A DNA stretch of 64,000 nt from Asanoa ishikariensis (GTDB lineage Bacteria; Actinomycetota; Actinomycetes; Mycobacteriales; Micromonosporaceae). The translations under genes were made by a program, and so were the position numbers. The first letter of the stretch is position 1. The number at the start of each line of letters is the position of its first letter. The stretch spans positions 1,116,001 through 1,180,000 of the forward strand of contig NZ_FNQB01000001.1 in NCBI RefSeq assembly GCF_900107455.1. The letters run 5' to 3'. The notes under the pieces are model-generated. The model did not search any database, was not told the DNA's origin, and saw only the letters and a program-made list of their open reading frames with translations. This document shows positions 6,092 through 50,931 of the stretch, piece after piece.

Positions 6092-6910
6092 GTGCGAGCG
6101 CGACTGGACATCGCCTACGACGGCACCGACTTCTCCGGCTGGGCGGTGCAGCCGGAGCGGCGTACGGTCGCGGGCTCGATCCTGGCGGTCCTGGAGCAGG
6201 TGCTCGGCGCGGGCGTGGCGACGGGACTCACGGTGGCCGGCCGCACCGACGCCGGGGTGCACGCCACCGGCCAGGTCGCGCACGTCGACCTGCCCGACCC
6301 GGTGTGGGCGGCGACCGGGCCGACCCTGCTGCGCCGGTTGGCGGGGCTGCTGCCGGGCGACGTGCGGGTGACCGCGCTGGCCGAGGCGCCGCCCGAGTTC
6401 GACGCCCGGTTCTCCGCGACGTTCCGCCGGTACGAGTACCGGGTCACCGACGCGCCCTGGGGTGCCGAGCCGCTGCGCCGCCGCGACACCCTCGCCTGGC
6501 CCCGCAGCCTCGACCTGGAGCGCCTCAACGCGGCCGCCGAGGGTCTGCACGGCGAACACGACTTCGCGGCGTTCTGCAAGCGCAAGGAGAACGCCACCAC
6601 GGTGCGGGAAGTGACGCGGCTGGAGTGGCACCGGGTGGTGGCCGACGGCGTGCTGGTCGCGACCGTCCAGGCTGACGCGTTCTGCCAGGCGATGGTGCGC
6701 AGCCTGGTCGGCGCGATGCTGGTCGCCGGCGACGGCCGCCGCCCGCCGGAGTGGCCGGCCAGCCAGCTCACCCGGCGCGAGCGCAGCAGCGCGGTGACCG
6801 TCGCTCCGCCGCACGGCCTGGCCCTGGTCGCGGTGGGCTATCCCGAGGAGCCGGGCGCGCTGGCCGCCCGCGCCAACGCGACGCGCCGGCTCCGAACGCC
6901 CGCCTCTTAG
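6092..6910 (+). CDS. truA: tRNA pseudouridine(38-40) synthase TruA
   Basis: A 272-residue TruA, which converts uridines 38-40 of the anticodon stem-loop to pseudouridine. It starts with LDIAYDGTDFSGWAVQPE, and the catalytic aspartate is D53 in AGRTDAGVHATGQVAH. Later signatures are DARFSATFRRYEYR and FCQAMVRSLVGAML. I place the start at the GTG at 6092 (VRARLDIAYDG); an upstream in-frame ATG at 6041 lies inside the terminator hairpin, which argues against it. truA follows the L17 gene in many actinobacteria. Confidence 0.96.
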   Translation: MRARLDIAYDGTDFSGWAVQPERRTVAGSILAVLEQVLGAGVATGLTVAGRTDAGVHATGQVAHVDLPDPVWAATGPTLLRRLAGLLPGDVRVTALAEAPPEFDARFSATFRRYEYRVTDAPWGAEPLRRRDTLAWPRSLDLERLNAAAEGLHGEHDFAAFCKRKENATTVREVTRLEWHRVVADGVLVATVQADAFCQAMVRSLVGAMLVAGDGRRPPEWPASQLTRRERSSAVTVAPPHGLALVAVGYPEEPGALAARANATRRLRTPAS

Positions 6911-6935
6911 GCCCCGCCTTCTTAGGCCCTGCCTC

Positions 6936-7685
6936 TTAAGATCCCGCCGCCCGGCGGTCCAGGACGCGGGTGCGTAGGTGTTGCTCGATCAGGTCGGAGA
7001 GGACCTGCCGGGCGGTCGGGTCGTCCGGGTAGATCTTGCCGCCGTCGGTGCGGGCGATCACCGCGTACGCCAGGAAATGCCCACGGGCGTGCCAGCCGAG
7101 TTGGGCGGTGTCGCGGGCCAGGCCGCCGGTGCCGCTGCCGGCCGGCAGACCGCGCAGTCGACCGCTCTCGGCGTCCAGCAGCGACTTGATCCCGCCGCGC
7201 ACCGTCTCGGCGCCGTCCGCGTCGGACAGGTTGAGCAGCCCGGCGGTGACCGCGTAGTCGCCGTCGGGGGAGCGCAGCGTCGCCCGCACCACCTGGTTGC
7301 AGCCGGCCGCCTCGAGCAGCGGGACGACCTCGCCCTCGGCCGCACCGGCACAGCGCTCCAACGTCTGCACCCGCAGCACCCGGTAGCGCGCGCCGGTCGG
7401 CCCCGCGACCACCACCGAGCCGGGGAACACCTCGCCCGCGGTCAGCGGGCGAGGGTCGTCGGCCCGCGAGGTCAGCTCGCGCAGCACGGTGGCGGCGGCC
7501 GGCTGCCCGGTCGCCTCGGCCCCGGCGACCGGCGGATCGTCGCCGGCCACCAGGTAGGTGCCATAGCCACACAGCGCGAGCACCGCCAGTGCGGTGAGCA
7601 CGCAGGTGGGCCGCCATTGCCGCGGTGGCCGCCAGTCCGGTGACCGCCAGGCCGCGAGTACGCGCCCGAGAAGCACGCGGGCCAC
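6936..7685 (-). CDS. conserved membrane-anchored protein of unknown function
   Basis: About 249 residues from the GTG at 7685 (MARVLLGRVLAAWRSPDW); an upstream ATG at 7751 would add 22 proline-rich residues. A basic N-terminus precedes one membrane segment (about 29-46, VLTALAVLALCGYGTYLV), and the remaining ~200 residues lie outside the membrane. The outer part has two cysteines (LERCAG and AAGCNQ) that could pair, and a region reading GLLNLSDADGAE. I do not recognise a named domain. It is convergent with truA and divergent from the methyltransferase at 7786. Confidence 0.7.
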   Translation of the reverse strand: MARVLLGRVLAAWRSPDWRPPRQWRPTCVLTALAVLALCGYGTYLVAGDDPPVAGAEATGQPAAATVLRELTSRADDPRPLTAGEVFPGSVVVAGPTGARYRVLRVQTLERCAGAAEGEVVPLLEAAGCNQVVRATLRSPDGDYAVTAGLLNLSDADGAETVRGGIKSLLDAESGRLRGLPAGSGTGGLARDTAQLGWHARGHFLAYAVIARTDGGKIYPDDPTARQVLSDLIEQHLRTRVLDRRAAGS

Positions 7686-7785
7686 GCTAGGCGGTGGGAC
7701 CGGCCGGACGGCCGGAATTCGGTCGGCTCCCGTCGAACGGGTGGCGCCCATTCGAGTGACCGCCTCGTGGGCGAGAATGCGAGGC

Positions 7786-8406
7786 GTGACCGGGGACCAT
7801 TACTTCACCGCCGAGCCGGACGCCGCCACTGCGGGTGCCGAGCGCACCGTCGAGTTCGCCGCCGGCGGCCACGAGTTCCGCCTGCGCGCCTCCGGCGGGG
7901 TGTTCTCCGCCGGCCGGCTCGACCCGGGCACCGCGGTGCTGCTGCGAAAGGCCGACCTGCCCGACCGCACCGAGAGCGGCGCGCTGCTCGACCTCGGCTG
8001 CGGCTACGGGCCGATCGCCTGCGTGCTCGCCACCGTCGCCCCGTCGGCCACCGTCTACGCGATCGACGTCAACGCGCGCGCCCGCGCTCTGGCGGCGGCC
8101 AATGGCGCGCCGCTCGGCGTGCGGGTGTCGGACCCCGAGGGGGTCGACGACAGTGTCGGGTTCGCACAGATCTGGACGAACCCGCCGTTCCGGGTCGGCA
8201 AGACCGAGCTGCACGCGCTGCTCGGCCGCTGGCTGCCCCGGCTCGCGCCCGACGGCGTCGCCTGGCTGGTCGCGGGCCGGCACCTGGGTGGCGACTCGCT
8301 GCACCGCTGGCTGGAGGACGAGGGCTGGCAGGTGACCCGGCACGCGAGCCAGAAGGGCTTCCGGGTGCTCCGGGTCTCGTCGCCGGGCGGAATTGACGCG
8401 ACGTAG
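7786..8406 (+). CDS. class I SAM-dependent methyltransferase (RsmC/MTS-like)
   Basis: About 206 residues. The order is that of the small MTS family: a beta-rich lead-in (DHYFTAEP ... GGVFSAGRLDPGTAVLL), motif I ALLDLGCGYGPIACVLA, an acidic strand end YAIDVNARA, and the catalytic IWTNPPFRVGK, an NPPF motif typical of N-methyltransferases on nucleic acid or protein. rRNA guanine methylation (RsmC-like) is the best guess. The start is GTG at 7786 or ATG at 7777; neither has a good ribosome binding site and the transcript may be leaderless. Confidence 0.85.
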   Translation: MTGDHYFTAEPDAATAGAERTVEFAAGGHEFRLRASGGVFSAGRLDPGTAVLLRKADLPDRTESGALLDLGCGYGPIACVLATVAPSATVYAIDVNARARALAAANGAPLGVRVSDPEGVDDSVGFAQIWTNPPFRVGKTELHALLGRWLPRLAPDGVAWLVAGRHLGGDSLHRWLEDEGWQVTRHASQKGFRVLRVSSPGGIDAT

Positions 8407-8433
8407 GGCGGCTTTGTACTGCACCATTTCGGC

Positions 8434-10113
<1,680 letters not shown>

Positions 10114-42272: not shown

Positions 42273-43308
42273 CGAACCGCTAGTTCTGGGCATCGAGACG
42301 TCCTGCGACGAGACGGGCGTCGGCATCGTCCGCGGCACGACGTTGCTCGCCGACGCGCTGGCGTCCAGTGTGGACCTGCACGCGCGGTTCGGTGGCGTGG
42401 TGCCCGAGGTCGCCAGCCGGGCGCACCTCGAGGCCATGGTGCCGACGATGCAGCGGGCGCTCGACGAGGCCGGCGTGACGCTCGCCGACGTCGACGCGAT
42501 CGCCGTGACCTCGGGCCCGGGCCTGGCCGGGGCGCTGCTGGTCGGTGTCGCCGCCGCCAAGGGCTACGCGGTCGCCGCCGAGAAGCCGATCTACGGCGTC
42601 AACCACCTGGCCGCGCACGTCGCCGTCGACACCCTGGAGCACGGCCCCCTGCCCGAGCCGGCGATCGCCCTGCTGGTCTCCGGTGGGCACTCGTCGCTGC
42701 TGCTGGTCGACGACCTGGCCACCGGCGTGACCCCGCTCGGCTCGACCATCGACGATGCCGCCGGCGAGGCCTTCGACAAGGTGGCCCGGCTGCTCGGCAT
42801 GCCGTTCCCGGGTGGGCCGCCGATCGACCGCGCGGCCCGCGACGGGCAGGCCACGATCGCTTTCCCGCGCGGCCTCACCGCCGCCAAGGACCAGGCCGCG
42901 CACCGGTTCGACTTCTCCTTCTCCGGCCTGAAGACGGCCGTGGCCCGCTGGGTCGAGGCGCGCGAGCGGGCCGGTGAGCCGGTGCCGGTCAACGACGTGG
43001 CGGCCTCGTTCCAGGACGCGGTCTGTGACGTGCTCACCGCCAAGGCGATCGACGCCTGCCGGCAGCACGGCGTCGACACGCTGGTGATCGGCGGCGGGGT
43101 GGCGGCCAACTCGCGGCTGCGCGTCCTGGCCGAGGAGCGCGCGGCGAAGGTCGGCATCAGGGTCCGAGTGCCGCGGCCCAAGCTGTGCACGGACAACGGC
43201 GCGATGGTCGCCGCGCTCGGTTCGCACCTGGTCGCGGCCGGAGTCCGGCCCAGCCGGCTGGATCTGCCGGCCGACTCTGCGATGCCGTTGACGCTCGTGA
43301 GTGTGTAA
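42265..43308 (+). CDS. tsaD: tRNA N6-adenosine threonylcarbamoyltransferase TsaD
   Basis: A 347-residue ASKHA-fold enzyme that transfers the threonylcarbamoyl group to A37. It has [14 protein letters not shown] at the start, the metal-binding HLEAMVPTM and [10 protein letters not shown], and [10 protein letters not shown]; the iron/metal ligand and nucleotide-binding [11 protein letters not shown] are present. GTG start overlaps rimI by eight bases. With tsaB and tsaE it forms the complete t6A complex except for TsaC, which is not in the window. Confidence 0.96.
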
Positions 43309-43574
43309 TGTCCGGCACCGTGATCGTGCGCATGTGGGAGGCCCGCGCCGAGAAAGGGCGTCTGCCCGACCTCGTCGAGTGGGTCTGCGACACCGCCCTG
43401 CCGCGCATCGAGGTCAACCCGCTGCACATCACGAGCGAGGTGTTCTCCTCGTCCGACGACCGCTGCGTCGTGATTTCCAGATGGCGCAGCGACCCCGAGC
43501 GGCTGGCCGCCCCGCCTCCGCTGCTGGTGGCCAGGCCACCGCACGAGTGGGACTTCACCCTGGTCGACCGATAA
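43308..43574 (+). CDS. small protein, possible dimeric alpha-beta barrel (ABM-like)
   Basis: An 88-residue protein whose ATG overlaps the tsaD stop (TAATG), so it is the last gene of the operon. It reads TVIVRMWEARAEKGRLPDLV at the start and VVISRWRSDPERLAAPP later, a beta-alpha-beta pattern like antibiotic-biosynthesis-monooxygenase or Dabb proteins. The match is short and the catalytic histidines are not obvious; I do not claim an activity. Confidence 0.65.
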   Translation: MSGTVIVRMWEARAEKGRLPDLVEWVCDTALPRIEVNPLHITSEVFSSSDDRCVVISRWRSDPERLAAPPPLLVARPPHEWDFTLVDR

Positions 43575-43618: not shown

Positions 43619-45316
43619 ATGCGGCCTCTACCCGTCGGCGACCCCGGCAACCCAGACGTCCGGTCGGCCACTCGCTACCTCCTGTGGCTGGCGGCTCGCA
43701 CCTGGCCTTCTCTGCTGGCCGCGATCGGGTTCGCGACCCTCTGGATGGTCAGCCAGGCGCTGATTCCCGCCACCGTCGGCCGGGCCATCGACGCGGGCCT
43801 GTCCGCGCGCGACCCCGACGGACTGCTGCGCTGGGGCGCGGTGCTGTTCGGCCTCGGCCTGGTCACCGGCGCGAGCGGCATCCTGCGCCACCGGATGGCC
43901 GCGTTCAACTATCTGTCCGCCATCTACCGCACCGTCCAGCTCACCGTGCAGCAGGCCAACCGGATCGGCGCCACCCTGCCCAAACGGTTGTCTACGGGCG
44001 AGGTGGTCAGCATCGGCACCTCGGACATCAACCACATCGGCGGCGCGCTCGACATCACCGCCCGGGGCACCGGCTCGCTGGTCGCCGTGATCACCGTTGG
44101 GGTCATCCTGCTCACCACGTCGGTGCCGCTGGGCCTCGTGGTCGTGGTCGGCGTGCCGGTGATGATGCTGATCGCGGGTGCCCTGATCAAACCGCTCCAG
44201 CGCCGCCAGCAGGTCTACCGCGACCAGGAGGGCAAGCTGACCACCCGGGCCGGCGACCTGGTCGCCGGCCTCCGGGTGCTGCGCGGCGTCGGTGGCGAGT
44301 CGACCTTCGCCGGCCGCTACCGCGCCGAGTCGCAGGATCTGCGGTCGGCCGGCGTACGGGTCGCCCGGATCGAGGCACTCCTCGCGGCGGCGGAGATCCT
44401 GCTGCCCGGCATGTTCCTGGTGCTGGTCACCTGGCTCGGCGCCCGGTTCGCCCTGCGCGGCGAGATCAGCGCCGGCGAGCTGGTCGCCCTCTACGGCTAC
44501 GCGGCGTTCCTGGTCAGCCCCCTGCGCCAGCTCACCGAGGCGATCGACCGGCTGACCCGGGGCCACGTGGCGGCCCGCCGGGTGGTGCGGATGTTCACCC
44601 TGGTGCCGGAGTTCACGTCGCCGGCCGCGCCGGTGACCGCACCCCGTGGCCCGCTGGTCGACGCCGAATCCGGGCTCACCGTCCAACCCGGACGGTTGAC
44701 CGCCATCGCGGCCCGGGAGCCCGCTGACGCGGCCGCGATCGCCGACCGGCTCGGCCGGTTCGCCGACGGGCCGGTGACGCTGTCCGGCGTACCCCTGGCC
44801 GATCTCGACCTGGCCGAGGTGCGGCAGCGGATCCTGTTGGCCGACAACGACGCCCGGCTGTTCGCCGGCCCGCTGCGGGACGAGCTCGACCCGGTGGGCA
44901 AGGGCGACCGGCACGTGGCGGACGCCCTCGACGCGGCCAGTGCGGCCGACGTGGTCGACGCGCTGCCGGACGGGCTCGACGCCCTGGTCGCCGAGCGCGG
45001 CCGCGAGTTCTCCGGTGGCCAGCAGCAGCGGCTCCGGCTGGCCCGCGCACTAGTCGCCGACCCGGAGGCGCTCGTGCTGGTCGAGCCGACCAGTGCCGTC
45101 GACGCCCACACCGAGGCCCGGATCGCGGCCCGGCTCGGCGCCGCGCGCGCCGGCCGCACGACGGTCGTCTGCACGACCAGCCCATTGGTGCTCGACCAGG
45201 CCGACGAGGTCGCGTTCGTCGCCGACGGCCGGGTGGTGGCCGCCGGCACCCACCGCGACCTGCTGCGCCGCCGCCCCGACTACGCGGCCGCCGTCACCCG
45301 GGAGGAAGACGAATGA
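43619..45316 (+). CDS. ABC exporter half, membrane domain plus strongly degenerate ATPase domain
   Basis: A 565-residue half-transporter with six membrane segments (about 25-320) and an ABC domain (about 340-560). The ATPase has lost almost all catalytic features: the Walker A place reads TAIAAREPADAAAIAD, the Q-loop glutamine position reads LADNDARLF, Walker B reads ALVLVEPTS with Val for Asp, and the switch histidine position reads CTTSPL. The signature FSGGQQQRLRLARAL (about residue 464) is intact. It overlaps the second half by four bases and can act only as its partner. The substrate is unknown. Confidence 0.9.
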   Translation: MRPLPVGDPGNPDVRSATRYLLWLAARTWPSLLAAIGFATLWMVSQALIPATVGRAIDAGLSARDPDGLLRWGAVLFGLGLVTGASGILRHRMAAFNYLSAIYRTVQLTVQQANRIGATLPKRLSTGEVVSIGTSDINHIGGALDITARGTGSLVAVITVGVILLTTSVPLGLVVVVGVPVMMLIAGALIKPLQRRQQVYRDQEGKLTTRAGDLVAGLRVLRGVGGESTFAGRYRAESQDLRSAGVRVARIEALLAAAEILLPGMFLVLVTWLGARFALRGEISAGELVALYGYAAFLVSPLRQLTEAIDRLTRGHVAARRVVRMFTLVPEFTSPAAPVTAPRGPLVDAESGLTVQPGRLTAIAAREPADAAAIADRLGRFADGPVTLSGVPLADLDLAEVRQRILLADNDARLFAGPLRDELDPVGKGDRHVADALDAASAADVVDALPDGLDALVAERGREFSGGQQQRLRLARALVADPEALVLVEPTSAVDAHTEARIAARLGAARAGRTTVVCTTSPLVLDQADEVAFVADGRVVAAGTHRDLLRRRPDYAAAVTREEDE

Positions 45317-47109
45317 GCAGGCAACTCCCGGTGGCCGACGCGGACGAGGTGCGCAGGTACGCCCGCAAACTGGTCCGTCGCCACCCTGGGCAGCTAGGAC
45401 TCGCCCTCGGCCTGCACGGTTTGGCCGCGGTCGCCGGCCTGGTCGCGCCGCGCCTGCTCGGCAACCTGGTGGAAGGCCTTTCCAACGGCGCCACGACCCG
45501 CACGGTCGACGGGGTCGCCGTGGCCATCGCGGTGTTCGTGGTGACGCAGGCGTTGCTGACCCGGTTCGCCGCCTTCTGCTCGGCCCGGCTCGGCGAGCGG
45601 GTGCTGGCCGAGCTACGCGAGGAGTTCGTCGACCGGATCCTGGCCATCCCACTGTCCACCGTGGAACGCGCTGGCACCGGCGACCTGCTCACCCGCACCT
45701 CGCGCGACGTCTCGGCGTTGTCGCACAGTGTCCGCTTCGCGGTGCCGGAGACCCTGATCGCCATCGTCACCACGGTGTTCGTGGTCGGCGCGATCCTGCT
45801 CACCAGCCCGCTGCTGGCCCTGCCCTGCCTGATCGCGGTGCCGATGCTCTGGTTCGGCACCCGGTGGTACCTGCGCCGCGCCCCGGCCGGCTACCTGCGG
45901 GAGAACGCCGCCTACTCCGACATCACCGACGGCATCAGCGAAACGGTCGAGGGCTCCCGCACGACGGAGGCGCTGCGCCTCCAGGACCGCCGTCGGGCCC
46001 GCACCGACAGCGACATCGCCCGGTCGTACGCGGCAGAGAGATACACGCTGATGCTGCGTACCGTCTGGTTCCCGATCGTCGAGGTCGGCTACGTGGTGCC
46101 GGTCGTGGCGACGCTGCTCGTCGGCGGCTGGTTCTACCTCGAGGGCTGGGTGACGCTGGGCCAGGTGACCGCCGCGACCCTCTACGTGCAGGCGCTGGTC
46201 GACCCGATCGACCGGCTGCTGTCCTGGCTCGACGAGCTTCAGGTCGGCGGCGCGTCGCTGGCCCGGTTGCTCGGTGTCGCGGGCCGGCCCGCGCCGACCG
46301 CGGCGACCACCGAAAAGCCGGCCGGCCGCGGCCAGCGCCTCGTCGCGAAGGACGTCCGATACGCCTATGTGGAGGGTCGCGAGGTGCTGCACGGCATCGA
46401 CCTGACCGTCGAGCCGGGGGAGCGGCTGGCGATGGTCGGCCCGTCCGGTGCCGGCAAGTCGACGCTGGGCCGCCTGCTGGCCGGCATCCACGCGCCCACC
46501 GGCGGCACGGTCACCGTCGGCGGCGTCCCGCTGGCGTCGCTGCCGCTCGACGAGCTCCGGTCACATGTGGCGCTGGTGACCCAGGAGCACCACGTGTTCA
46601 TCGGCACGGTCCGCGACAACCTCGTGATGGCCCGGCCGGGCGCGACCGACGACGAGGTGCGGGCGGCGCTGGCGGCGGTCGACGCGCTCGACTGGGTCGC
46701 GACGCTGCCGTCCGATTTGGACACCGTGGTCGGCACCGGTGGCCATGCCGTGCCGCCGGCCCAGGCCCAGCAGCTCGCGTTGGCCCGGCTGGTGCTGGCG
46801 GACCCGCACACCCTGGTGCTCGACGAGGCCACCTCGCTGATCGACCCGCGCGCGGCCCGGCATCTGGAGCGGTCACTCGCCGCAGTCCTACAGGGGCGCA
46901 CCGTGATCGCCATCGCCCACCGGCTGTTCTCGGCGCACGACGCCGATCGGGTCGCGGTGGTGGAGGACGGTCGGATCACGGAGCTCGGTTCACACGCCGA
47001 ACTCGTCGCCGCCGGGGGCTCGTACGCCGCGCTCTGGCGGTCGTGGCATGGAGAGGAAGGGCATTCAGCCCAGAAACAGCGTCAAAGTCCTTATTCGACA
47101 GTGGCGTAA
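45313..47109 (+). CDS. ABC exporter half, membrane domain plus active-type ATPase domain
   Basis: A 598-residue half-transporter with six membrane segments and an ABC domain from about residue 340. It keeps Walker A GPSGAGKSTLGRL, Q-loop LVTQEHHVFIGT, Walker B TLVLDEATSLIDP and the switch histidine IAHRLFS. Its signature is lost: the place of LSGGQ reads AVPPAQAQQLALARL. Together with the first half the dimer can build one canonical site (Walker A/B of this subunit with the signature of the partner) and one dead site. ATG overlaps the first gene (ATGA). Confidence 0.92.
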   Translation: MSRQLPVADADEVRRYARKLVRRHPGQLGLALGLHGLAAVAGLVAPRLLGNLVEGLSNGATTRTVDGVAVAIAVFVVTQALLTRFAAFCSARLGERVLAELREEFVDRILAIPLSTVERAGTGDLLTRTSRDVSALSHSVRFAVPETLIAIVTTVFVVGAILLTSPLLALPCLIAVPMLWFGTRWYLRRAPAGYLRENAAYSDITDGISETVEGSRTTEALRLQDRRRARTDSDIARSYAAERYTLMLRTVWFPIVEVGYVVPVVATLLVGGWFYLEGWVTLGQVTAATLYVQALVDPIDRLLSWLDELQVGGASLARLLGVAGRPAPTAATTEKPAGRGQRLVAKDVRYAYVEGREVLHGIDLTVEPGERLAMVGPSGAGKSTLGRLLAGIHAPTGGTVTVGGVPLASLPLDELRSHVALVTQEHHVFIGTVRDNLVMARPGATDDEVRAALAAVDALDWVATLPSDLDTVVGTGGHAVPPAQAQQLALARLVLADPHTLVLDEATSLIDPRAARHLERSLAAVLQGRTVIAIAHRLFSAHDADRVAVVEDGRITELGSHAELVAAGGSYAALWRSWHGEEGHSAQKQRQSPYSTVA

Positions 47110-47445: not shown

Positions 47446-47635
47446 TCGGCTCGCCCGAACGCATAGAAGCCGGTTCCAGTGCCGTGACCGGATCGTTACG
47501 GCAGCGTGTCGACCGCGCGAGGTAGCGCGTCAAATGCGCGAGTATTTTGTGTTTCGGATCGCCAGGGTCCGGGAGGTTAACAACGCCGTTCGCCCCCGTG
47601 CGGTCCGCTCAACGGCCATGAAGGAGTCCAAGGTT

Positions 47636-48745
47636 ATGCGTAACCGATTTTTGTCGGTCGCCGTCGCCACTATGGCGGTCGGCGCGCTGGCACTTGCGGG
47701 TTGTGGATCCGACGACGGCGGCGGCGACGCGGCCGGTGGCGGCACCGCCGCCAAGAAGGTCGGCGTGATCCTGCCCGACGCCGCCACCTCTCCGCGCTGG
47801 GAGGCCAACGACCGTCCGCTGCTCAAGGCAGCGTTCGACGGCGCCGGCATCACGGCCAACATCCAGAACGCCGACGGCGACAAGGCCAAGTTCGGCACCC
47901 TCTGCGACAGCATGATCAACGAGGGCGTCTCCGTTCTCCTGATCGTCAACCTCGACCCTGACTCCGGCAGCGCCTGCCTGAAGAAGGCCCAGGGCGCCGG
48001 CATCAAGACGATCGACTACGACCGCCTGACCCCGGGTGGCGAGGCGTCCTACTACGTCTCCTTCGACAACGTCCAGGTCGGCAAGCTGATGGGCGAGGGC
48101 CTGACCAAGTGCCTCACCGACGCTGGCAAGACCAAGGCCAACATCGTTCAGATCAACGGTGACCCGACCGACAACAACGCCTCGCTGTTCAAGCAGGGCT
48201 ACGTCGAGGCGCTGAAGCCGAAGGTGGACAGCGGCGACTACACCATCGTCGGTGACCAGACCGGTAAGTGGGACGCCACGGTCGCGGGCACCGCGTTCGA
48301 GCAGCTCTACACCCAGGCCGGCGGCAAGGTTGACGGCGTTGTCTCGGCCAACGACACCATGGCCCAGGGCATCATCGCCCGCCTGACCGCCAACGGCCTC
48401 AACGGCAAGGTGCCGGTCACCGGCCAGGACGCCAGCAAGGAAGGCCTCCAGGCCATCCTGTCCGGCAACCAGTGCATGACCGTCTACAAGGCGATCAAGG
48501 TCGAGGCCGACACCGCCTCCAAGCTGGCCATCGCGCTGATCAACGGCCAGACCCCGGGCAGCGACCTGGTCAACGGCTCGGTCAAGGACACCGTCCTGAA
48601 CAAGGACGTCCCCTCGGCGCTCGCCACCCCGAAGGCCATCTACAAGGACTCCGTCAAGGACGTCATCGCCGACGGCTTCTGGAAGGCCAGTGACATCTGC
48701 ACCGGCCAGTACGCCGCGCTCTGCACCTCGGCAGGCGTTCAGTAA
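47636..48745 (+). CDS. xylF: sugar ABC transporter substrate-binding lipoprotein, xylose (XylF) type
   Basis: A 369-residue lipoprotein. ATG at 47636 is nine bases behind AAGGAG (47621-47626). The signal peptide ends in the lipobox LALAGC (Cys23), followed by a Gly/Asp-rich linker and a two-lobed periplasmic-binding fold (KVGVILPDAATSPRWEANDR, IKTIDYDRLTPGGEASYYVS, DGVVSANDTMAQGIIARL). This is the D-xylose-binding subfamily pattern; other pentoses are possible. It is the highest-expressed part of such importers. A hairpin follows its stop. Confidence 0.88.
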   Translation: MRNRFLSVAVATMAVGALALAGCGSDDGGGDAAGGGTAAKKVGVILPDAATSPRWEANDRPLLKAAFDGAGITANIQNADGDKAKFGTLCDSMINEGVSVLLIVNLDPDSGSACLKKAQGAGIKTIDYDRLTPGGEASYYVSFDNVQVGKLMGEGLTKCLTDAGKTKANIVQINGDPTDNNASLFKQGYVEALKPKVDSGDYTIVGDQTGKWDATVAGTAFEQLYTQAGGKVDGVVSANDTMAQGIIARLTANGLNGKVPVTGQDASKEGLQAILSGNQCMTVYKAIKVEADTASKLAIALINGQTPGSDLVNGSVKDTVLNKDVPSALATPKAIYKDSVKDVIADGFWKASDICTGQYAALCTSAGVQ

Positions 48746-48757
48746 CTAACCGCCAAG

Positions 48758-48784
48758 GGCCCGGCAGGCGAGACCTGCCGGGCC
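48758..48784 (+). terminator. stem-loop behind the sugar-binding protein gene
   Basis: GGCCCGGCAGG (48758-48768) pairs perfectly with CCTGCCGGGCC (48774-48784) around cgaga. No T run follows. A hairpin here commonly lets the binding-protein message exceed that of the ATPase and permease genes. Confidence 0.6.
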
Positions 48785-48841
48785 TCTGGGCGCTTACGGC
48801 CACGGTTACTGCCGGGCCGGGAAACAACTAGTGAGGTGACC

Positions 48842-49663
48842 ATGACGGTGCCGGAGGGTGCTGCGGGGGCGGCGACGGCGACGGAGGATGCCGCGCCGCT
48901 GCTGTCGCTGCGCGGGATCAACAAGAGCTTCGGCGCGGTCCACGTTCTACAGGACGTGGACTTCGATGCATATGCGGGACAGGTGACGGCGCTCGTCGGC
49001 GACAACGGCGCGGGCAAAAGCACCCTGATCAAGGGGATCGCCGGCAGTCAGCCGTTCGATTCCGGGGAGTACGTCTTCGACGGCCGGCAGGTCTCGGTGA
49101 CCAATCCCAAGCACGCCAACGAACTCGGCATCGAGGTCGTCTACCAGGACCTGGCGCTCTGCGACAACCTGGACATCGTCGACAACCTGTTCCTCGGCCG
49201 CGAGGTCACGAAGAACGGCATCCTCGACGAGGCGACCATGGAACGCCGGGCCCAGGAAACGCTCGCGGGGCTGTCGGTCCGCACGGTCAAGTCGATCCGT
49301 CAGGTGGTCGCCAGCCTCTCCGGTGGCCAGCGCCAGACGGTGGCGATCGCCCGCGCGGTGATCTGGAACTCCAAGCTCGTGGTGCTCGACGAGCCGACGG
49401 CCGCCCTCGGCGTCGCGCAGACCGAGCAGGTGCTGCGGCTGGTGCGCCAGTTGGCCGACAACGGCCTCGCGGTCGTGCTGATCAGCCACAACCTCAACGA
49501 CGTGTTCCAGGTGGCCGACCGGATCTCGGTCCTCTACCTGGGCCGGCTGGCGGCACAGATGAAGACCAAGGACGTCAAGAGCAACCAGGTCGTCGAGGTC
49601 ATCACGACCGGACGGTCGGATGCCATCGGTGGCATCACCAACGGCAACGGGGAGTTGAAATGA
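48842..49663 (+). CDS. sugar ABC transporter ATP-binding protein (single domain, XylG-like)
   Basis: A 273-residue ATPase with Walker A VGDNGAGKSTLIKG, signature SLSGGQRQTVAIARAV and Walker B LVVLDEPTAALG. It matches the first half of XylG-type proteins, which usually have two ABC domains (~500 residues); here only one is present, as in some actinobacterial sugar importers that act as a homodimer. ATG at 48842 has GAGG at 48833-48836; a GTG at 48836 is possible. It overlaps the permease start. Confidence 0.9.
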   Translation: MTVPEGAAGAATATEDAAPLLSLRGINKSFGAVHVLQDVDFDAYAGQVTALVGDNGAGKSTLIKGIAGSQPFDSGEYVFDGRQVSVTNPKHANELGIEVVYQDLALCDNLDIVDNLFLGREVTKNGILDEATMERRAQETLAGLSVRTVKSIRQVVASLSGGQRQTVAIARAVIWNSKLVVLDEPTAALGVAQTEQVLRLVRQLADNGLAVVLISHNLNDVFQVADRISVLYLGRLAAQMKTKDVKSNQVVEVITTGRSDAIGGITNGNGELK

Positions 49664-50931
49664 CCGCCCCGACGAAGGTCGAGACGACCGAAAAGCACGT
49701 CGAGGAGACCGGCCCGAGCAACCCGCTGGTCGCCGCGTTCGGCAACTGGTGGGCCCGGGTCCGCGGCGGCGACGCCGGCTCCCTGCCCGCGCTGCTCGGC
49801 ATCGTCGCGCTGGTCATCGTGTTCGCGGCGTTGCGCCCCAACACGTTCACCAACGCGTTCAACTTCGCCAACCTGATCCACCAGGCGGCGGCCGTCATCG
49901 TCATCGCGATGGGCCTGGTCTTCGTCCTGCTGCTGGGCGAGATCGACCTCTCCGCCGGTTATACGGCCGGCACGGCGGCGGCGGTGATGGGCGTCGTGGT
50001 CACCCGCTGGGGTTGGTCCTGGCCCGTCGGCCTCCTGGCCTGTCTGGTCACCGGTGCCGTCGTCGGCCTGGTGATCGGTCTGCTGGTAGCCAAGCTGGGC
50101 ATCCCGTCGTTCGTCGTGACGCTGGCGGCGTTCCTCGCCCTGCAGGGCGTGCTGCTTCAGTTGATCGGCGAAGGCGGCACGATCGCGATCCGCGACGACA
50201 CGCTGCGGGCGATCAACAACAACGACATGCCGGTCTGGTTGGGCTGGGCGCTGTTCGCGTTGGTGGTCGGTGGCTACGCGGCGATCGTGCTCCGGCGCGG
50301 TGCGAAGCGGCGGTCCAGCGGCCTGACCTACGAGGCGATCCAGGTGACCCTGGCCAAGATCGCCGCGTTGGCCGTGCTGCTCGGCCTGATGACCTACTGG
50401 CTGAGCATCGAGCGCAGCCGGAACCCCGCGATCACCTCGATCAAGGGTGTTCCGATCGTGGTCGCGGTGCTGCTGGTCCTGTTGGTCGGCCTGACCTTCG
50501 TGCTGACCAAGACGTCGTTCGGCCGGCACGTCTACGCGACGGGTGGCAACGCTGAGGCGGCCCGACGGGCCGGCATCAACGTGGGGCTGGTCAAGCTGGC
50601 CTGCTTCGTGATCGCCTCGACGTTGGCGGCGGTCGGCGGCATCATGCTCGCCAGCCGCGACAACTCGATCTCGCCCTCGACCGGTGGCGCCTCGACCCTG
50701 CTGTACGCGGTGGGCGCGGCCGTCATCGGTGGCACGAGCCTCTTCGGTGGCAAGGGCCGGATCGTCGACGCGATCCTCGGTGGCCTGGTGATCGCGATCA
50801 TCATCAACGGCATGGGTCTGCTCAACCAGCCGTCGAGCGTTGTCTACATGGTGACCGGCCTGGTCCTGCTGGTGGCGGCCAGCGTCGACGCGATCTCGCG
50901 CCGGCGTGCCCGCTCCACCGGTCGGGTCTGA
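49660..50931 (+). CDS. sugar ABC transporter permease (XylH-like)
   Basis: A 423-residue membrane protein with about ten hydrophobic segments, ATG overlapping the ATPase stop (ATGA). It has the BPD_transp_2 pattern: AVIVIAMGLVFVLLLGEIDL, then LGIPSFVVTLAAFLALQGVL, FGRHVYATGGNAEAARRAGI and SLFGGKGRIVDAILGGLVIA. It carries pentoses, most likely xylose, with the binding protein and ATPase. The N-terminal ~30 residues before the first helix are hydrophilic. Confidence 0.91.
   Translation: MTAPTKVETTEKHVEETGPSNPLVAAFGNWWARVRGGDAGSLPALLGIVALVIVFAALRPNTFTNAFNFANLIHQAAAVIVIAMGLVFVLLLGEIDLSAGYTAGTAAAVMGVVVTRWGWSWPVGLLACLVTGAVVGLVIGLLVAKLGIPSFVVTLAAFLALQGVLLQLIGEGGTIAIRDDTLRAINNNDMPVWLGWALFALVVGGYAAIVLRRGAKRRSSGLTYEAIQVTLAKIAALAVLLGLMTYWLSIERSRNPAITSIKGVPIVVAVLLVLLVGLTFVLTKTSFGRHVYATGGNAEAARRAGINVGLVKLACFVIASTLAAVGGIMLASRDNSISPSTGGASTLLYAVGAAVIGGTSLFGGKGRIVDAILGGLVIAIIINGMGLLNQPSSVVYMVTGLVLLVAASVDAISRRRARSTGRV

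Follow-up and report, generated by a model that had tools for sequence, protein, structure and literature searches.

A tandem exporter gene pair of Asanoa ishikariensis and its actinobacterial relatives in which one composite ATP site appears to be erased

Heterodimeric ATP-binding cassette (ABC) exporters such as TM287/288, MsRv1273c/72c, BmrCD and TmrAB are made of two half-exporters and carry one consensus and one degenerate composite ATP site. Their hallmark is the missing catalytic Glu in the degenerate half (PMC7544095), and it is commonly proposed that ATP at the barely hydrolysing second site glues the two nucleotide-binding domains (NBDs) together (PMC12038006, PMC7756269). The pair studied here, SU1 and SU2, resembles these exporters in being encoded as tandem half-exporters with one consensus and one degenerate composite site. 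It lies in a stretch of 64,000 nucleotides from Asanoa ishikariensis (assembly GCF_900107455.1, contig NZ_FNQB01000001.1, positions 1,116,001 to 1,180,000 of the forward strand), called the window hereafter and used for all gene and feature positions. Whereas MsRv1273c holds ATP in its Walker A groove (PMC12038006), the Walker A motif and the A-loop of SU1 are gone. The two genes are the following.

43619..45316, forward strand: SU1, half-exporter whose NBD is a putative pseudo-ATPase (565 residues; Pfam domains; AlphaFold2 (AF2) mean predicted local distance difference test (pLDDT) 84.7)
45313..47109, forward strand: SU2, predicted catalytic half-exporter (598 residues; ATGA overlap with SU1; Pfam domains; AF2 mean pLDDT 75.9)

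In both proteins a transmembrane domain (TMD) precedes the NBD, and the Pfam domains ABC_membrane and ABC_tran were found above their cut-offs. The ABC_tran match of SU2 covers the full profile (1-137, 87.5 bits), while that of SU1 begins at profile position 38 (33.3 bits). No NCBIfam family reached its cut-off among the best 25 of 153 matches to SU1 and the best 25 of 175 to SU2.

When SU1 was aligned with SU2, AAREPADAAAI was found in place of VGPSGAGKSTL (Walker A), ADNDA in place of VTQEH (Q-loop), LVLVEPTSAVD in place of LVLDEATSLID (Walker B and D-loop), CTTSP in place of IAHRL (switch) and FSGGQ in place of VPPAQ (signature). The original prediction, made from the letters of the window, held that in SU1 Walker A is lost together with the Gln of the Q-loop, the Asp of Walker B and the His of the switch, FSGGQ being retained, and that SU2 keeps all of its motifs except the signature, VPPAQ; all of these losses are real in the alignment. 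It had not mentioned the deletion of the SU1 A-loop, the erosion of the SU2 X-loop, the retention of the SU1 catalytic Glu or the old age of this state. The SU1 elements are listed below, with counts over the family alignment.

44597..44695, forward strand: linker between TMD and NBD, with the first beta-hairpin and its A-loop deleted (A-loop column empty in 148/148; only 3-residue strands in the model)
44708..44740, forward strand: former Walker A, AAREPADAAAI (the Gly, Lys and Ser/Thr of the motif are all absent; Lys 0/148)
44840..44854, forward strand: former Q-loop, ADNDA (Gln 0/147; Asn in 96)
45008..45022, forward strand: signature FSGGQ, intact and predicted to serve the live site (SGGQ 148/148)
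45071..45103, forward strand: Walker B and D-loop, LVLVEPTSAVD (Walker B Asp 10/148; catalytic Glu 129/148; D-loop Asp 148/148)
45170..45184, forward strand: former switch loop, CTTSP (His 0/147; new conserved Ser 147/148 and Pro 144/148)

This alignment holds 148 distinct SU1 rows and 142 SU2 rows. Homologues were found at E<=1e-60 in 17 of 31 related genomes and at 1e-75 in 20 of 296 genomes across the phylum Actinomycetota, the window's genome being included in both sets, and further rows came from stretches of related genomes. Named genomes are the best 80 of 546 confirmed relatives (from 591 pattern matches). The counts leave out frames in which fewer than 380 residues were kept around the match, rows that are identical or nearly so, and six conventional Streptomyces-type halves located upstream of SU1. 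Some SU2 rows end early, so that 19 do not reach the signature and 41-42 do not reach Walker B, the D-loop or the switch, and counts at these elements refer to readable rows.

Walker A was absent from every SU1 row, down to about 31% identity with the window. As a control, it was present in 28/28 conventional ABC rows taken from five genomes, that of the window among them, including seven ordinary degenerate-site halves in which Walker A is kept and the catalytic Glu is replaced by Asp. At the level of sequence, the SU1/SU2 family is thus the mirror image of the ordinary degenerate case, Walker A being gone and the Glu kept in most rows. Orthologues with intact motifs, which had been named beforehand as the finding that would count against the proposal, were not found, the Walker A Lys being present in 0/148 SU1 rows. 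The results fit the earlier reading of a single working site and of a dead site that is far more degenerate than that of TM287/288 or BmrCD and may bind no ATP. Neither chance nor decay nor a sequencing error explains the pattern, which recurs in 148 distinct SU1 rows.

The A-loop strand of SU1 was deleted rather than substituted, the linker between TMD and NBD having a median of 34 residues in SU1 versus 46 in SU2. At the former Walker A new residues are found instead, with Pro at the position of SU2 Gly379 in 127/148 rows and Asp or Glu at the position of the Gly preceding the Lys in 113/148. The catalytic-Glu position is occupied by Glu in 129/148 rows, the window included, by Asp in 18 and by Asn in one, and the X-loop Glu is present in 113/148. 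No substitute Walker A was found elsewhere in SU1: the loose pattern [AG]xxxxGK[ST] occurs in 10 rows, nine times through a GR-to-GK change at about residue 513 just before the switch and once in a read-through tail, and none is a likely replacement.

A full Walker B Asp-Glu (LVLDE/LALDE) was observed in ten SU1 rows, namely L143-L145, L150-L154, L156 and L119, in which Walker A, the Gln and the His are missing; their Walker B Asp may have been retained or regained. An intermediate clade keeping the Q-loop Gln (Streptomyces-type L143-L156, and L119) was considered and rejected, as the Gln of QDKDP falls outside the Q-loop column, L119 has none there, and the column holds Gln in 0/147 rows.

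In SU2, the elements of the ATPase domain show the opposite state.

46357..46371, forward strand: A-loop RYAYV, intact (Tyr 142/142)
46435..46467, forward strand: Walker A, VGPSGAGKSTL, intact (Lys 142/142)
46576..46590, forward strand: Q-loop VTQEH, intact (Gln in 139/139 readable rows)
46750..46764, forward strand: former signature VPPAQ, predicted to face the dead site (SGGQ in 0/123 readable rows; Pro for the first Gly in 97/123)
46813..46845, forward strand: Walker B and D-loop, LVLDEATSLID, intact (Asp and Glu 101/101; D-loop Asp in 90/100 readable rows)
46912..46926, forward strand: switch IAHRL, intact (His in 100/100 readable rows)

The most frequent form of the SU2 signature across the family is [ST]PAQAQQ. 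The X-loop Glu of SU2 is lost in the window and present in 10/125 readable rows. The D-loop Asp is missing from 10/100 readable SU2 rows, seven of them from one deep subclade, and SU1 is never without its own. In this subclade (L111, L115, L116, L118-L121) SU2 has Gly in place of its D-loop Asp (DEATAEAG, DEATADAG or DEASAEAG) and the SU1 D-loop Asp is intact; there the D-loop predicted to face the dead site has decayed too.

The family-wide losses hit the elements that face one composite site and spare those that face the other. Site 1 would be formed by the A-loop, Walker A and B, Q-loop and switch of SU1 with the signature and X-loop of SU2, and is erased; site 2, to which SU2 contributes its A-loop, Walker A and B, Q-loop and switch and SU1 its signature, X-loop and D-loop, is intact. 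Since all losses of SU1 and the signature and X-loop losses of SU2 meet in one composite site, the pair has one erased and one intact site. The pattern that the original prediction called complementary degeneration is therefore real, but it is the expected geometry of a single composite site and not the product of two independent events. Its statement that every nucleotide-contact motif is lost at the dead site holds for the motifs it named and is slightly too strong, as the catalytic Glu of SU1 is kept in 129/148 rows.

Structure models were obtained with AF2 as monomers without ligand, SU1 reaching a mean pLDDT of 84.7 and a predicted template modelling score (pTM) of 0.66, and SU2 75.9 and 0.52. 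In the SU2 model, the P-loop strand 371-375 is preceded by two strands of 11 residues each, 343-353 (which contains Tyr352 of the A-loop) and 356-366, and is followed by a 4-residue loop and the helix 380-389. The corresponding strands of the SU1 model have three residues each (346-348 and 353-355) and are followed by strand 360-365, a 2-residue turn and a helix, 368-378, that starts from the conserved Pro. A different loop taking the place of the SU1 Walker A, also named beforehand as a finding to the contrary, is unsupported, as the modelled strand enters the helix through this 2-residue turn. In SU2, the signature helix is modelled to begin at Pro482 (481-484 being PPAQ). Given the known capping preferences of helices, both modelled helix starts at the dead site look like ordinary capped helix N-termini.

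A Foldseek search with the SU1 model returned 3qf4_A (TM287/288) first (TMq 0.70, 576 columns) and 9iqg_A (MsRv1273c/72c) second. VIA-align gave 9iqg_A a Z of 27.5 with a root-mean-square deviation of 6.1 over 545 residues, many exporters being tied within 1. Chain A of 3qf4 and chain A of 9iqg are, we infer, the degenerate halves of their pairs. As modelled, the NBD fold of SU1 survives.

Altogether, SU1 and SU2 probably form a type IV (ABCB-like) exporter, a heterodimer that works on one ATP site, with the SU1 NBD as a pseudo-ATPase, and that descends from a conventional degenerate-site heterodimer. Site 2 would bind and hydrolyse one ATP per cycle. At site 1 the adenine-stacking hairpin is deleted, the P-loop is modelled as a plain strand-turn-helix, the ligands normally provided by the Lys, the Q-loop, the Asp of Walker B and the His of the switch are missing, and the SU2 signature helix opposite this site begins with Pro-Ala in place of Gly-Gly. 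ATP binding at site 1 in the usual mode seems impossible on these residues. Since the ligands and the hairpin of site 1 are erased, the SU1 NBD would work as a pseudo-ATPase; it would act as a docking partner that supplies LSGGQ and the D-loop in trans and passes movement to its membrane domain. Such a pump would bind no ATP at site 1, use one ATP per cycle and function in export.

Two options would be left for the dead site, which could either pack nucleotide-free or be part of a dimer that separates fully in every cycle on one ATP. It is a fair possibility, put here at slightly less than even, that site 1 is a permanent nucleotide-free hinge whose half-sites pack without ATP, so that the pump clamps at one site with one ATP per cycle and no ATP glue. 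This proposal is based on the two helices that normally hold phosphate with their N-termini, in SU1 that of Walker A and in SU2 that of the signature, which look as if they had been converted to self-capped starts. The former reads x-P-[EA]-[DE]-A, with Pro in 127/148 rows and Asp or Glu at helix position 3 in 113/148. The latter is mostly [STDGN]-P-A-Q, with a cap residue in 109/123 rows and Pro next to it in 97/123; at the cap position itself 12 rows have Pro, among them the SU2 of the window.

Several points weigh against an exporter with a silent site 1. The catalytic Glu is kept in 129/148 SU1 rows and the Walker B Asp in 10/148 (nine of one Streptomyces-type clade, and L119), which is odd if nothing happens at the site, and structural roles for the kept Glu are possible. 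The contrast in the X-loop is a tendency only, Glu being present in 113/148 SU1 rows versus 10/125 readable SU2 rows. The homologue set was collected by similarity to SU1 and is biased toward its own kind. The SU2 model is of moderate quality (pLDDT 75.9), falling below 50 at residues 498-512, which include Walker B and the D-loop. Finally, export is the direction of transport predicted from the fold.

An ordinary degenerate site is the first alternative. Site 1 would then still bind ATP, loosely or in an unusual pose, as a non-hydrolysed glue held by the SU1 backbone and the kept Glu, for which the 129/148 rows with this residue speak. In the nearest solved exporters by fold, ATP is described at the degenerate site of MsRv1273c/72c and AMP-PNP at that of TM287/288. 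Moreover, Pdr5 belongs to the subfamily called the most extreme in asymmetry and still has ATP in its degenerate site (PMC8421411). However, the Walker A change reported for Pdr5 is Lys to Cys (PMC7756269), whereas in SU1 the P-loop glycines, the Lys, the Ser/Thr, the A-loop strand, the Gln, the His and the signature of the partner are gone, in a conserved manner, and the P-loop is modelled as a 2-residue turn. This alternative is thus considered unlikely.

The comparison with Pdr5 goes further. As in the fungal PDR subfamily, every motif of one composite site deviates in the SU1/SU2 family, the partner signature included (PMC7756269, PMC8421411). Pdr5 is nevertheless a full-size, ABCG-like transporter of NBD-TMD order, whereas SU1 and SU2 have the TMD before the NBD and are encoded by two genes; and the motifs of Pdr5 can still be recognised despite their changed residues, with ATP present in the deviant site, whereas in the SU1/SU2 family the loop and the adenine strand are themselves missing. 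ABCG5/G8 is similar in having a degenerate site in which Walker A and the partner signature are both changed (PMC7756269), but it is a transporter of a different type and has Arg in place of the Walker A Lys. Unlike the TM287/288 type, SU1 keeps the catalytic Glu (129/148) without Walker A (Lys 0/148).

Another view, held to be quite improbable, is that SU1 has no dedicated transport partner and is a regulatory or sensing half, or the partner of several catalytic halves. Pseudo-ATPases can turn into regulators, and in G012 a SU1 gene lies about 4.5 kb from the nearest SU2. Yet SU2 was found at most 700 bases downstream of SU1 in 148/157 SU1 frames (some genes being counted in two loci), and the main splits of the SU1 and SU2 trees agree as judged by eye. 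The nine exceptions comprise L010 and L122, which are one G012 gene, L031, which is a trimming artefact (its SU2 lies at 6706-8442), and six stretches that end within 0.4-1.4 kb. In addition, SGGQ and the D-loop Asp are present in 148/148 SU1 rows, a conservation that can be understood only if they serve a catalytic NBD in trans. Decay of the SU1 gene, or an artefact of assembly or annotation, as the wholesale absence of its motifs could suggest, has practically no likelihood given the same state in 148 rows, the conservation of the new dead-site residues, the ratios of nonsynonymous to synonymous substitution rates (dN/dS) of 0.12-0.26 and the lack of internal stops in any of the listed SU1 matches at 1e-75 or better.

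The exporter with one erased site is also consistent with the history of the two halves. In an unrooted tree of 48 rows from which six motif blocks had been removed, SU1 (16 rows) formed one side of a branch at 100/100 and SU2 (15 rows) at 100/99. A further split at 100/99 separated SU2 and nine conventional rows with the full Walker B Asp-Glu from SU1, seven conventional degenerate halves and the long-branch Asp-Glu row L168; SU1 and SU2 thus fall beside the degenerate and the consensus halves, respectively, of such actinobacterial pairs. SU1 was again one clade in a larger quick tree of 105 rows. The simplest reading of these trees is that a conventional heterodimer with a degenerate site would have lost that site wholly, once, before the paralogues arose, the pair then being copied together. 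This suggests an order of events from conventional heterodimer to degenerate site to erased site.

When SU1 of the window was compared with five congeneric genes, dN/dS was 0.12-0.26 over the NBD and 0.13-0.22 over the TMD. Four such pairs of SU2 gave 0.10-0.24 over the part of the NBD that was compared. The SU1 NBD is a maintained part of the protein under purifying selection.

The family is widespread among relatives of the organism. In Micromonosporaceae, a SU1 match at E<=1e-90 was found in 108/121 genomes (100/113 of good quality; 35/42 genera), the window's genome included. The named relatives (best 80 of 546) carry actinobacterial names, and the closest, about 70% identical, are from Phytohabitans and Plantactinospora. 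Among plasmid records, a homologue at 1e-30 was present in 11/72,556; five of these are labelled there, always as 'ABC transporter ATP-binding protein'. The source genome (9.09 Mb, 11 contigs) encodes three erased-site pairs, that of the window, one at C3:155222-158661 (48% and 53% identical to it) and one at C8:131303-134664 (35% and 39%).

Some loci have a particular arrangement. At L122 (G012:C1:1459901-1467849) the gap of about 4.5 kb between SU1 and SU2 contains an ABC-ATPase-like match, and L124 holds a tandem duo of erased-site pairs about 2.4 kb apart in one genome. At six Streptomyces-type loci (L138, L139, L140, L142, L149 and L155) a conventional consensus-type half, with ISAGQ and its other motifs intact, lies directly upstream of SU1, which suggests that conventional and erased-site exporters may be encoded side by side there.

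In the window, a gene for an 88-residue protein (43308-43574) is located between tsaD and SU1. Within flanks of at most 5 kb, the genes found near SU1 in the named loci (best 80 of 546 relatives) were rimI (17/80), this 88-residue gene (17/80) and tsaD (16/80). Just 3' of the pair, at 47534-50931, lie unrelated genes of a sugar-type ABC importer (binding protein, ATPase and permease, as judged by eye from their translations). SU1 has different neighbours in the other lineages that were inspected, and therefore no substrate is proposed from gene context. Export of the SapB type (RamA/RamB) was considered and dropped, a literature search for it having found no paper. The actinomycete glycopeptide exporters of the Tba type, described as homodimers in which every motif is present (PMC11960670), are therefore not of the SU1/SU2 family.

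Degenerate-site exporters are well known, and what appears to exceed the compared cases, as these are described in the passages cited, is the degree, with loop and strand removed, and the pattern, with the Glu kept and Walker A gone. Among the papers listed by searches of the open-licence PubMed Central literature, none was found to describe the SU1/SU2 family or any exporter in which one half lacks Walker A entirely, and a description may exist. As the catalytic Glu is kept in most SU1 rows, screens based on that residue alone would call SU1 canonical.

Why many exporters retain a second site that binds and barely hydrolyses ATP is an open question on which the SU1/SU2 pair bears, since it offers an experiment of nature on the need for ATP at that site. 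As a minimal one-ATP exporter, it would allow stoichiometry, power stroke and NBD separation to be measured without a second nucleotide. A large family without the second site, kept under selection, would suggest that the ATP glue is dispensable.

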